DNA of 64,000 nt. It comes from Chitinophagales bacterium. GTDB lineage: Bacteria > Bacteroidota > Bacteroidia > Chitinophagales > LD1. The notes beneath the pieces are model-generated. The model saw nothing but the letters and a program-made list of their open reading frames with translations. It was not told the origin of the DNA and did not search any database. Below are positions 42,985 to 46,818 of this stretch, one piece after another. The stretch covers positions 62,001-126,000 of the forward strand of contig JAEUUZ010000060.1 in NCBI GenBank assembly GCA_016786765.1, given 5' to 3'. The position numbers and the translations under genes are program-made. Numbering within the stretch: the stretch's first letter is position 1; each line of letters begins with the position of its first letter.

Positions 42985-43440
42985 TTATTGCGGAATTGAT
43001 TTTTGGAAATAGTCTTTTACGCTAATAAATATAGAATAGAACTGGCAGCCTAAACAATAGGCAAAAACCGATTCTAAAATAGCACAAACAATCAGAATGA
43101 TAGTTACCATTAATGCAATATGGAAATGTTGTAGGAGGAGCAGTGAAAGAATAATGACAGAAAAGATGAATCCGATTTTTGCGGCAAATCGCTTTGGTGC
43201 AGCATCAATCAGCTTTTCTTTAAAGTTAAGCTGATTTGTGATTTGAATTGCAATAAAGCGAAGTAGACTAAACTCTCTTTTGTAAAATCCTCTTACAAAG
43301 AAATCGTAACTAAGCAAAAGAAAAATAAAATATAGTTGAAAATAAATACCTACAGCAGCTAGGATAACAACAATTCCTGCAACAGTTCTAACAGTAGGTT
43401 CGTTAATTTTTTCTCCGTTAACCGGGCAAATGTGCGTCAT
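42985..43440 (-). CDS. DUF4395 family membrane protein
   Basis: The 151-residue protein has four hydrophobic segments. It begins MTHICPVNGEKINEPTVRTVAG and has DFFVRGFYKREFSLLRFIA, DAAPKRFAAKIGFIFS, and a final ESVFAYCLGCQFYSIF with a CxxC-type pair (CLGC). These are the DUF4395 landmarks. The function is unknown; the CLGC motif suggests thiol chemistry or metal handling in the membrane. It lies downstream of the two-component operon on the same strand, separated by 213 bases without a visible gene. Confidence 0.78.
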   Translation of the reverse strand: MTHICPVNGEKINEPTVRTVAGIVVILAAVGIYFQLYFIFLLLSYDFFVRGFYKREFSLLRFIAIQITNQLNFKEKLIDAAPKRFAAKIGFIFSVIILSLLLLQHFHIALMVTIILIVCAILESVFAYCLGCQFYSIFISVKDYFQKSIPQ

Positions 43441-43653
43441 GATTTCTGATTTTTAAAGCTTAGATAATGTGCTTTTTTTAAAGCAAACGCGTGATACGTT
43501 CATTTGAACAAGCCAGAAACGAAAAAAGCAAAAATAAAAATGGCTGTTGTGCTTAATTGCAACAACAACAACACATAAATGTGTTCGATTGAATACTATA
43601 TGTTTTAGAGATAAACATTAATCAAGAATAGTGAAAATTTTTGAGATAGAAAA

Positions 43654-44307
43654 CTATACAACAATAATTCCGCTCTTAATTCCATAAATTGTTAAGCCAA
43701 TGGCATTTTTAACACCAATTTTCTTAATAAGTTCGGTACGGATACCCTCGATGGTTCTAACGCTACAAAACATCTTTTCTGCAATTTCGGCACTGGTTAA
43801 TTCTTCTCCAATATGTTTTAGGAGTTCGATTTCTTTAGCATTCAACACCAAATTACCGGAATCAAATTTTGGAACAATTTTCTTCTTTTTGGCCATGTTT
43901 TTCACCAAAAGTAGATTGACTTTTTCATCGAAATAAAAACCATTACAGATAATCGATTGTATAGCTAAGTGAATTATTTCAGGATCAGAATCTTTCGTGA
44001 GGTAACCGTTGGCTCCGGCTTCAATGGCTTTTAATACAAACTTCTCTTCATTATGCATTGAAATCATTAAACAAGGAGGGGAAACTCTTCGCTCCCTTAA
44101 TTTCATTAAGGCATCGATTCCGTTTAAAACCGGCATATCCATGTCCATTAAAACGATATCAGGATTTAAAGCAGAATATTTTGACAAGAACTCTTTACCG
44201 TTTTCGGCCTCACCAACAATTTTAAGTTCTGGAATATCGGATAGTATGGCTATAAGGCCTTTTCTGAATAGGGTGTGGTCATCAACCACCATTACATTTA
44301 TGGACAT
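43654..44307 (-). CDS. Response regulator, NarL/LuxR type
   Basis: The 217-residue protein has a receiver domain (residues 1-120) with acidic residues in VVDDHTLF, the phospho-acceptor Asp55 in LMDMDMP, and Lys106 in LTKDSD. The C-terminal LuxR HTH spans about 150-210 with LNAKEIELLKHIGEELTSAEIAEKMFCSVRTIEGIRTELIKKIGVKN. It is the last gene of a four-gene operon, 21 bases behind a HisKA_3-type kinase, its likely phosphodonor. Repeated GTAGAAATACG sites in the 46217-46289 intergenic region are candidate targets. Confidence 0.95.
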   Translation of the reverse strand: MSINVMVVDDHTLFRKGLIAILSDIPELKIVGEAENGKEFLSKYSALNPDIVLMDMDMPVLNGIDALMKLRERRVSPPCLMISMHNEEKFVLKAIEAGANGYLTKDSDPEIIHLAIQSIICNGFYFDEKVNLLLVKNMAKKKKIVPKFDSGNLVLNAKEIELLKHIGEELTSAEIAEKMFCSVRTIEGIRTELIKKIGVKNAIGLTIYGIKSGIIVV

Positions 44308-44328
44308 AAGCTGATATTGATCTTCGCT

Positions 44329-45117
44329 TTAAATATACAACTTTTCCATGACTACTTTTGTCCCTTTGTTCAATTCGGAATGGAACTCTATTTTTGCATC
44401 AATAACTTTTGCTCTCGACTGCATGTTTTTTAAGCCAATGCCTTTAGATGTAATGGTTTGAATGTCAAACCCTTTTCCATCATCGGCAATGGTAAGTCGA
44501 CAACAATTTGTTGCATATTCAAGAACGATGTTTATATGCTGAGCTTCTGCATATTTAATAGCATTTTGAACAGATTCTTGCGCAACACGGAAAAACGCTA
44601 ATTCTATGTCTTTGCTTTGTTCCAATACTTCTCCTTCGATAGTAGTAGATGAAGCAATAGTAACCGAGCCGTTAATTTTAGCTGAAACACTCTTTAGTGC
44701 TGCTGCTAAACCATCTTCTTCTAATTTAGAAGGGAGAATATTGTGCGAAAGTTGACGGATATTTTTAATGGAATTATCAATGTCTGATTTTAGCTGATCG
44801 ATTGAATCTAGCGGTAACTCATGTTTTTTGAACTGACTAGAAATATGTGCAGTTCCAAATCGAAGTGTAGCCATTTCTTGTAGAATACCATCGTGAAGTT
44901 CTTTGGCTATGAAATTCTGTGTGTTTTCTTGCGATTCGATAACTGCACGAAGCAACTCCTTTTGTTTCTCTTCTTCTTTTCGAGCTAACTCTTGTTGATG
45001 TAATAAAACCTTGCGTTGGTATTTAAATACAAAAAGCAACATTCCCCCAAAGAAAAGAATGAGACTACTTGTGCCGAAAAATAGGATTAAGAGGATAGAG
45101 TCTTTGGTTTCAAGCAT
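44329..45117 (-). CDS. Sensor histidine kinase, NarX/LiaS (HisKA_3) type
   Basis: The 262-residue kinase has one N-terminal membrane helix (residues 9-31) and almost no periplasmic part. A coiled helix precedes the HisKA_3 motif AKELHDGILQEMA with His75. The ATPase domain has an N-box FRVAQESVQNAIKYAEA and a G-box DDGKGFD, then GIGLKNMQSRA. With no input domain of its own, it probably receives signal from the adjacent membrane protein. It starts 31 bases inside the membrane-protein gene, which implies translational coupling. Confidence 0.95.
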   Translation of the reverse strand: MLETKDSILLILFFGTSSLILFFGGMLLFVFKYQRKVLLHQQELARKEEEKQKELLRAVIESQENTQNFIAKELHDGILQEMATLRFGTAHISSQFKKHELPLDSIDQLKSDIDNSIKNIRQLSHNILPSKLEEDGLAAALKSVSAKINGSVTIASSTTIEGEVLEQSKDIELAFFRVAQESVQNAIKYAEAQHINIVLEYATNCCRLTIADDGKGFDIQTITSKGIGLKNMQSRAKVIDAKIEFHSELNKGTKVVMEKLYI

Positions 45118-45752
45118 AAGATACTTATGGCAAGAAAAATATAAAAAAGAATAGAAAAAATAGAATTAAGCGTGAAGAACGCAACAGATGCAAATGTTTG
45201 ATCAAGACTATAGAGTTTATCAAGTAAAAGAAAGAGAAAAGTTGTGCCAGCATTGTAAAGAAGAAAACCAAGCGAAAACCAAAAAGGGACAGATTTATAG
45301 ATAAGCGATTCATTAGGATTTTCTAGTAAATCGAACAGGGTATATATACTTATTGCAATCTCAAGGAATGAGGCTATATAGTTAGTAAGATAGAAAGATT
45401 TTGATATTCCGGATTGGTAAATTTCAAAAAAAATGATGGAGTAAAAAATAACCGTTAACAGAATATAGATTGTCCTTGATATTTTTTTAATATGAAATTG
45501 ATGGAGTATATATACACAAAATGGCAGTTCCATCATTGCATATAAATTATAGATAAAATTATTGTTTTTTGAAATGAATTTTGGACGTAATAAATCTTCA
45601 CCTATGGTAGCGAATAGAAGCGTTAATACAAAAAAAAAGAAATAGAAATAGTCTCTGCGAATAGTATTAAACTTAATCGCAGAGACAAATATTAGAATCA
45701 AACTTGAATAAACAGCAGTTTGAACAAAAACAAATGAAGTATCAATTTCCAT
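45087..45752 (-). CDS. Multi-span membrane protein upstream of a histidine kinase
   Basis: The 221-residue protein has about six or seven hydrophobic helices, many aromatic residues, and no soluble domain. I recognise no named family. The likeliest role is the membrane sensor or a partner for the kinase whose gene overlaps its 3' end by 31 bases. The upstream end overlaps the small-protein gene by 11 bases. A conserved acidic residue pair in GEDLLRPKF and MMELPFCVY may be functionally relevant. Membrane topology is read from hydrophobicity only. Confidence 0.75.
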   Translation of the reverse strand: MEIDTSFVFVQTAVYSSLILIFVSAIKFNTIRRDYFYFFFFVLTLLFATIGEDLLRPKFISKNNNFIYNLYAMMELPFCVYILHQFHIKKISRTIYILLTVIFYSIIFFEIYQSGISKSFYLTNYIASFLEIAISIYTLFDLLENPNESLIYKSVPFWFSLGFLLYNAGTTFLFLLLDKLYSLDQTFASVAFFTLNSIFSILFYIFLAISILCLKPKTLSS

Positions 45753-46065
45753 TTAATGCATTGCCATTTCCGCAATATGGTGGACAAGGTTTTAATCGTT
45801 CAACAATCAAATCTGTAACATCATCACCAGAGGCTTTAGCACCAACCACAACTAAGTTTGCCACGCCCTCATCGTTCAATCCGAAGTAAATTCTTACACC
45901 TACTACATTTGTTTGATTAAGAAGATCATTTATCTTATTCTTTCCAATAAAAAGACCTTTAATTACGCCATCCATACTCGGAAATTGGTCTCTATATGCG
46001 GCAGTGTATGCAGCGCCTTCACTAAGTGTAACGAAATCTCCGTCATTAACTGTTAGTACATCCAT
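45742..46065 (-). CDS. Small conserved protein with C-terminal CPPYC motif
   Basis: The 107-residue protein has no signal peptide. Its middle part GVRIYFGLNDEGVANLVVVGAKASGDDV resembles a small Bacteroidota family of unknown function, whose members end in a CPPxC motif. Here the end reads LKPCPPYCGNGN, with Cys residues four apart. It is the first gene of the four-gene kinase operon. The stop codon overlaps the start of the membrane protein. It may be a signal or modulatory component for the sensor, or may be exported by an unusual route. This is inference. Confidence 0.72.
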   Translation of the reverse strand: MDVLTVNDGDFVTLSEGAAYTAAYRDQFPSMDGVIKGLFIGKNKINDLLNQTNVVGVRIYFGLNDEGVANLVVVGAKASGDDVTDLIVERLKPCPPYCGNGNALNGN

Positions 46066-46216
46066 GTTTTAAAAATTTTGAGGTTAAATAATAATAATGA
46101 AGTTACGTCAAAGTGCCAAAAAAAGATACATTAATATTATATTATATGTTTTTATCTATATAAAACAATGATAATTAATTAGTTGTTTATTTTTTTTTGT
46201 TATTCTGAAACATACA

Positions 46217-46289
46217 GTAGAAATTTTAGCGTAGAAATACGGGAACAAAAATTCCGTATTTCTACGCATAAAATCGAGTAGAAATACGC
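46217..46289. promoter_or_regulatory. Cluster of four GTAGAAAT(ACG) sites, possible operator
   Basis: GTAGAAAT at 46217-46224; GTAGAAATACG at 46231-46241; the inverted CGTATTTCTAC at 46255-46265; and GTAGAAATACG at 46278-46288. The middle two are the core of a 14-bp perfect inverted repeat, GCGTAGAAATACGG (46229-46242) with CCGTATTTCTACGC (46254-46267), spaced by 11 bases. The last site is just upstream of a possible -33 box. This layout is typical of an activator site for a dimeric regulator. Confidence 0.7.
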
Positions 46290-46320
46290 TTGACTTTTTG
46301 TGTAGGTCCATATTATCTTG
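46290..46320 (+). promoter_or_regulatory. Possible promoter of the 46366 gene
   Basis: TTGACT (46290-46295) and TTATCTTG (46313-46320) lie at Bacteroidota-like spacing, but each deviates from the TTTG/TAnnTTTG consensus. A weak core promoter is consistent with activation from the sites just upstream. The ATG is 46 bases downstream. Confidence 0.35.
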
Positions 46321-46365
46321 CGAACGAAAATTGTTTTATTACATAAAATATAAACAACCCCAAAG

Positions 46366-46818
46366 ATGAGATATTGTTTTTCAATCTTAATTTTTTTGTG
46401 CATTACGCATTCAGCCTTAGCAGGAAGTTCAAAAGTGGTTCAATTTAAAATTAAAGACCATTCCCAAGAGGCCGATAGTCTTAGATTTTTCCTAAATACA
46501 GTACACAATTTCTGTATTCTAGATTCAGTTGCATTAGTGTATTTCAAGGATAATCATTCTGATCAAACAATTGTGGTAAGCGAAGGAGAGAATCGTATGT
46601 TTTATTTGCTGAATGGAAGTACAGGATACTATGTTAAATATACCGCTAATTTTAAAGAGGTACAGTTTATTTTAGATAACTCCGAGACTCGCATTGATGC
46701 ATCCGTTGTAGTAGTGGATCAGATTCTATTTGACTGTGGAGGAAGTGTGTCTAATTGTAAAGCTTCAGATATGTTATGTATTGAAAGTAAACGAAAAGGT
46801 GGTTGTGTTCAGCGGTAA
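46366..46818 (+). CDS. Small secreted Cys-containing protein of unknown function
   Basis: The 150-residue protein has a signal peptide (MRYCFSILIFLCITHSALA). The mature part has beta-strand character and Cys residues, concentrated near the end in DCGGSVSNCKASDMLCIESKRKGGCVQR. No domain is recognised. It is divergent from the kinase operon and has GTAGAAAT repeats upstream, so it may be an output or a ligand of that system. It converges with the epimerase gene after 15 bases. Confidence 0.65.
   Translation: MRYCFSILIFLCITHSALAGSSKVVQFKIKDHSQEADSLRFFLNTVHNFCILDSVALVYFKDNHSDQTIVVSEGENRMFYLLNGSTGYYVKYTANFKEVQFILDNSETRIDASVVVVDQILFDCGGSVSNCKASDMLCIESKRKGGCVQR

Follow-up and report, generated by a model that had tools for sequence, protein, structure and literature searches.

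What supplies the input to a histidine kinase that carries almost no sensing domain of its own? This question is raised by a locus within a 64,000-nucleotide stretch of DNA from a Chitinophagales bacterium (GCA_016786765.1, contig JAEUUZ010000060.1, positions 62,001 to 126,000; this whole stretch is the window, and its numbering is used below), where four tightly linked minus-strand genes encode a small protein (SMALL), a membrane protein (MP), a histidine kinase (HK) and a response regulator (RR). We consider it reasonably probable that these genes specify a two-component system whose sensor is divided between a seven-transmembrane (7TM) receptor and a minimal kinase, along with a dedicated small protein partner. 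According to this proposal, MP would take the input and hand it to the separate HK, which would phosphorylate the NarL-type RR; RR dimers would then occupy the tandem GTA-N4-TAC palindromes that precede SMALL at intervals of about two helical turns, and the module would thereby control its own expression together with further promoters in this genome. SMALL would act as the dedicated partner of MP, most likely as a ligand or modulator whose conserved domain and C-terminal tail make the contact, and its level would feed back on the receptor.

The four-gene module and its predicted operator

According to the list of open reading frames (ORFs), SMALL (45742-46065, 107 aa) overlaps MP (45087-45752, 221 aa) by 11 bp (45742-45752), MP overlaps HK (44329-45117, 262 aa) by 31 bp (45087-45117), and HK is separated from RR (43654-44307, 217 aa) by 21 bp; all four genes are on the minus strand, and the coordinates, both overlaps and the gap match exactly those given in the original prediction for this locus. 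A single-sequence search detected SMALL in 21 of 395 genomes of the phylum, a profile search found the family in 110 of 349 genomes of the order, and a scan of the collection with a SMALL profile from a narrower alignment returned 80 loci. The loci were chosen by SMALL alone, and 122 were evaluable (a few of them duplicated between sets). MP was present at 111 of these 122 loci and the kinase also at 111, with all four genes, in the order SMALL-MP-HK-RR, at 97; in addition, a multi-helix ORF of 195-199 aa occupied the MP position at four loci scored as MP-less. A family occurring mostly away from the kinase and regulator, the outcome at odds with the originally proposed circuit, was thus not what we found. 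These distributions support the assignment of SMALL, MP, the kinase and the regulator to one putative conserved circuit across Bacteroidota. Carriers of the module include culturable relatives in Chitinophaga, Pontibacter and Hymenobacter. No MP-HK fusion was seen among the evaluable loci. A SMALL-kinase fusion (L270) was an apparent deletion product from which the tail, MP and HisKA_3 were gone, and it was excluded from the evidence. SMALL matches also occurred in metagenome-assembled genomes labelled Competibacteraceae, Methylotenera, Zixiibacteriota and Gemmatimonadetes (L091, L119, L127 and L130), which could reflect transfer or mis-binned contigs.

The repeated sites noted upstream of the module in the original prediction are real and consist of three predicted palindromes of the form GTA-N4-TAC, spaced by 21-26 bp (CGTAGAAATACG at 46230-46241, CGTATTTCTACG at 46255-46266 and AGTAGAAATACG at 46277-46288), together with a further degenerate copy (AGTAGAAATTTT, 46217-46228). 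In 87 non-redundant regions upstream of SMALL, 68 such sites were counted versus 5.7 (maximum of 14) in dinucleotide shuffles, and a spacer of exactly 4 was favored, with 13 sites or fewer for any other length; the control TAC-N4-GTA was not enriched upstream of SMALL. Site pairs 20-27 bp apart occurred in 16 upstream regions (0.01 expected), and all paired sites among the loci scanned were located upstream of SMALL. A site was present at 50 of the 89 loci with a DNA-binding RR compared to 5 of the 30 loci without one, the latter being receiver-only, atypical or lacking an adjacent regulator (Fisher p = 2e-4), and SMALL was present in 12 of the 16 genomes that contain tandem CGTAN4TACG versus 110 of 349 overall (p = 3e-4); the loci are related, so both p-values are optimistic. 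Among the five site-positive exceptions, two regulators may have been cut by a contig end, and that of L238 is adjacent on the other strand. The enrichment upstream of SMALL and the association with DNA-binding RRs suggest, as the simplest reading, that RR binds the GTA-N4-TAC sites and very probably controls its own operon, and the earlier interpretation of the repeats as regulator sites is strongly supported across the family. Such a predicted operator makes the regulon readable from sequence.

A minimal kinase and a candidate receptor

HK contains HisKA_3 and HATPase_c domains, both over the Pfam cut-offs, one membrane helix, and His75 within an ELHDG motif. No sensing domain was found by Pfam or ORF annotation, consistent with the minimal kinase described in the original prediction; such a domain is usual but not universal in HisKA_3/NarL systems. 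RR combines Response_reg with a GerE/LuxR helix-turn-helix domain (NarL/FixJ type) and possesses DD9-10 and Asp55. Both proteins are members of known families whose mode of working is that of a two-component system; HK would pass its phosphoryl group to RR. NarL/FixJ systems with HisKA_3 kinases (DesKR, LiaSR and NarXL type) likewise encode a HisKA_3 plus HATPase_c kinase and a Response_reg plus GerE regulator in a single operon and use palindromic operators, whereas the kinase studied here lacks a sensing domain and follows genes for SMALL and a stand-alone 7TM protein.

The structure model of the window MP (pLDDT 90.9) predicted seven helices in a 7TM bundle with a shape closest to those of G-protein-coupled receptors (GPCRs) and microbial rhodopsins (Z about 13), although helical bundles score high in general and this value may reflect merely a common arrangement. 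The resemblance is one of shape only: MP had no PDB sequence relative in a profile search, and helix 7 of the window protein (residues 185-212) contains no lysine and hence no retinal-binding candidate. A usual retinal protein (rhodopsin) was ruled out by this missing lysine, and a protease was set aside as a candidate due to the lack of conserved candidate residues. The view that MP belongs to no recognised family held up, with no credible Pfam or NCBIfam match for the window protein and weak, scattered Pfam matches only for 65 homologues. LiaF does not figure among the 25 Pfam families listed for these members, every match being weak, and AgrB is also absent from these listed weak matches. 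The homologues are 12-23% identical to the window MP, and no residue is invariant in their alignment; fast evolution of this sort is frequent in receptors. The charged loops suggest an N-out/C-in orientation.

The SMALL-MP pair is accompanied at some loci by a PAS/HisKA or hybrid kinase (L038, L043 and L047), one locus (L034) carries a duplicated SMALL-MP pair, and two (L043 and L045) possess extra MPs. Because the kinase varies while SMALL-MP stays, the pair looks like the constant input half of the predicted circuit and the kinase like its exchangeable half. At another locus (L105:8973-10316), a neutral ceramidase match (PF04734, E = 5.6e-15) follows SMALL-MP in the kinase position. MP is a probable receptor subunit on the basis of these models, and the minimal kinase, the 7TM model and the fixed operon position all support the earlier suggestion that it is the likely sensor.

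A dedicated membrane protein ahead of a small HisKA_3 kinase and a NarL-type regulator is also a feature of the LiaFSR/VraTSR systems of Firmicutes. The present module shares this arrangement; however, MP has a 7TM architecture and no LiaF among its listed (weak) Pfam matches, and SMALL has no counterpart in those systems. A search of the literature and family libraries yielded no description of the separate 7TM input, the SMALL family or the fixed four-gene layout. SMALL occurs in about a third of the sampled genomes of one order, usually with the circuit, and neither SMALL nor MP has a family entry; in MP, the module offers a concrete candidate for a histidine kinase input subunit that is a 7TM receptor and a protein of its own.

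Possible roles of the small protein

SMALL comprises a conserved core (GxRxYYG) and a C-terminal tail (CPxxC...LN). The window protein ends in KPCPPYCGNGNALNGN; the Cys-containing end was correctly noted in the original prediction, which lacked the final residues. Residues G56, R58 and Y60 are invariant and C94, P95 and C98 of the tail are nearly invariant in an alignment of 71 members, and 119 of 142 distinct sequences have a near-C-terminal CPxxC. No credible Pfam or NCBIfam match was obtained for the window protein, weak scattered Pfam matches only were seen for the 71 homologues, and a PDB sequence profile search revealed no credible relative. The AlphaFold model (pLDDT 91.5) consists of two helices and a small sheet for which Foldseek and VIA-align gave no confident structural match (best Z of 3.6), a result that we do not take to prove a new fold. 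Nothing relevant was found in the literature on CPPYC/CPPxC proteins, the operator sequence or Bacteroidota signalling. Two SMALL domains apparently occur in one polypeptide at L042:5881-6633, L257:3714-4397 and L202:1556-2539.

The tail could itself be the signal. In a pheromone system of this type, the disulfide-looped CPxxC...LN peptide, or a Trp-rich equivalent, would be sensed externally by MP, as for ComX and ComP, and the signal-receptor-kinase-regulator order plus autoregulation are indeed reminiscent of peptide quorum systems. The tail is conserved up to the C-terminus, its Cys pair was lost jointly in about five sequences while LN-type tails showed no clear loss of one Cys alone, and a second class of tail exists in one clade (L054, L055, L245, L250, L251, L252 and L254) where Trp-rich ends (WWS, WWD and WYNWG) replace CPxxC with the gene order unchanged. 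Furthermore, about 10 homologues have lipoprotein or membrane-/signal-anchor N-termini, and because of these their SMALL domains are probably extracytoplasmic. We nevertheless regard a pheromone as unlikely, since the invariant G56, R58 and Y60 are situated in the folded domain outside the tail, the tails show conservation and not variation between strains, the operons of the loci inspected have no recurrent protease, peptide exporter or modifying enzyme, and the window SMALL has no signal peptide (an in-frame TAA lies two codons ahead of its ATG).

The ComQXPA system of Bacillus comprises a signal precursor without a signal peptide, a multi-helix receptor, a HisKA_3-type kinase and a NarL-type regulator; ComP is receptor and kinase in one protein, and ComX is short without a folded domain. 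The window module is alike in its precursor-like small protein, multi-helix membrane protein, kinase type and regulator type, but here MP and HK are separate ORFs and SMALL carries a folded domain. No ComQ-like isoprenyl transferase was found in the four-gene operon of the window or among its neighbors.

The absence of a signal peptide from the window SMALL and most homologues, the strongly conserved domain core and the confidently predicted fold would also suit a cytosolic co-sensor that modulates the kinase upon binding a small molecule or in response to thiol redox state. A precedent is the small accessory sensor NreA of the Staphylococcus nitrate/oxygen system, which binds NreB and inhibits this kinase when nitrate is absent (PMC8139620). 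NreABC resembles the present module in having a small accessory protein that acts with a kinase and regulator, whereas NreA is a GAF protein and the module described here adds a 7TM protein; no GAF match was identified among the 71 SMALL members, the fold searches likewise provided no confident match, and there was no PAS match either. The lipoprotein or membrane-anchor N-termini of about 10 homologues would place the domain outside the cytoplasm, and several intact modules do without the tail cysteines, an argument against an essential thiol switch. A co-sensor role is possible but leans toward the doubtful.

SMALL is the first gene of the operon, straight after the operator, as might be anticipated for an output of the circuit, i.e., an RR-controlled effector or secreted product that MP would transport or protect. 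This arrangement seems quite improbable: MP is receptor-like (7TM) in shape with no transporter or protease family match, HK has no other input domain, and the SMALL-MP pair persists when the kinase is swapped.

Several observations weigh against the favored split-sensor system with a dedicated SMALL partner, in addition to the generic nature of helical-bundle scores and the relatedness of the loci. The operator site was not found at 39 of the 89 loci with a DNA-binding RR. SMALL occurs without MP at a few loci, either beside a 990-1027-aa kinase (L257, L258 and L266) or alone (L198 and L271). Finally, the linkage suggests that SMALL modulates or is sensed by MP, as was originally proposed, yet linkage is unable to separate ligand, modulator, chaperone and output roles, and we infer both the SMALL-MP and the MP-HK contacts.

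Operator copies elsewhere in the genome and neighboring genes

The sequence GTAGAAATACG occurs 25 times in this genome, whereas the reversed control occurs 3 times; most copies are grouped in clusters of two to four, about 21-26 bp apart. Beyond the window, the clusters precede a DUF4365 plus SIR2 locus, a Pycsar cyclase and effector, an ion-channel gene, a Pycsar-type cyclase pair, a GNAT gene and a phosphoesterase-like gene, and one has no clear target; a SIR2-pAgo locus is preceded by a single site and a degenerate neighbor (the SIR2, Pycsar, ion-channel, cyclase-pair and SIR2-pAgo genes are those of L056, L058, L060, L061, L064 and L065). Defence loci are prominent among the operator-bearing promoters, and this pattern was seen only in this genome. 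In G407 and G411, the genes that follow clusters do not resemble defence genes, and genome-wide counts of CGTATWWATACG in nine other genomes were near background, with mostly single copies; a large defence regulon is therefore not family-wide. The presence of the operator at several defence loci makes the switching-on of such genes in this organism a testable question.

These clusters might instead be the sites of another regulator, or part of a mobile promoter element that travels with defence cassettes, and lie outside the regulon of this RR. An extra common sequence (GGTTGGTATTGTGG...) downstream of the sites at L056, L058, L060, L061 and L065 is as expected of copied promoters or elements, and related genomes that bear the module (G402, G405 and G420) lack these exact clusters. 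Conversely, the module's own operator has the same sequence as the clusters elsewhere, SMALL is present in all five genomes with tandem GTAGAANTACG, and in G571 a tandem pair lies immediately upstream of SMALL. On balance, we judge an origin outside the RR regulon to be unlikely. We view as highly improbable the more far-reaching scenario in which SMALL is a released or exported ligand of a GPCR-like 7TM receptor and the circuit turns on the SIR2, Pycsar and SIR2-pAgo defences of this organism; if true, the circuit would raise immunity as a community or lysis alarm.

Within the window, the three sites (46230-46288) lie between SMALL and a divergent plus-strand gene (46366-46818, 150 aa in the ORF list) and could serve both. 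Its product has a probable signal peptide and a Cys-rich C-terminus, with no Pfam or NCBIfam match, and no counterpart was detected at the other loci checked. The DNA between the sites and either flanking gene revealed no clear Bacteroidota promoter. The originally suggested activation of this gene by RR is plausible as local regulation, but the gene is not a conserved target; across the family, the predicted target is the promoter of the module itself. On the other side of the module, the originally delimited interval (42985-46818) correctly enclosed the four genes and also took in a DUF4395 gene (42985-43440; PF14340, E = 1.2e-28), which is 213 bp from the RR gene and outside the conserved module. 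By ORF and Pfam annotation, the window operon is limited to the four genes, with the DUF4395 gene and sugar-related genes as neighbors.

Two types of RNA motif were observed near the operator-bearing loci. Flavo-1 RNA matches (RF01705) are close to defence loci (L056:5767-5847, L056:3626-3706 and L061:308-387), and the DUF805b RNA motif (RF02914) is found at paralogous genes (..RLSITMTAAQITAVKTAIQTIQTNMPFL..) beside two operator clusters (L060:5679-5714 and L061:5780-5815).

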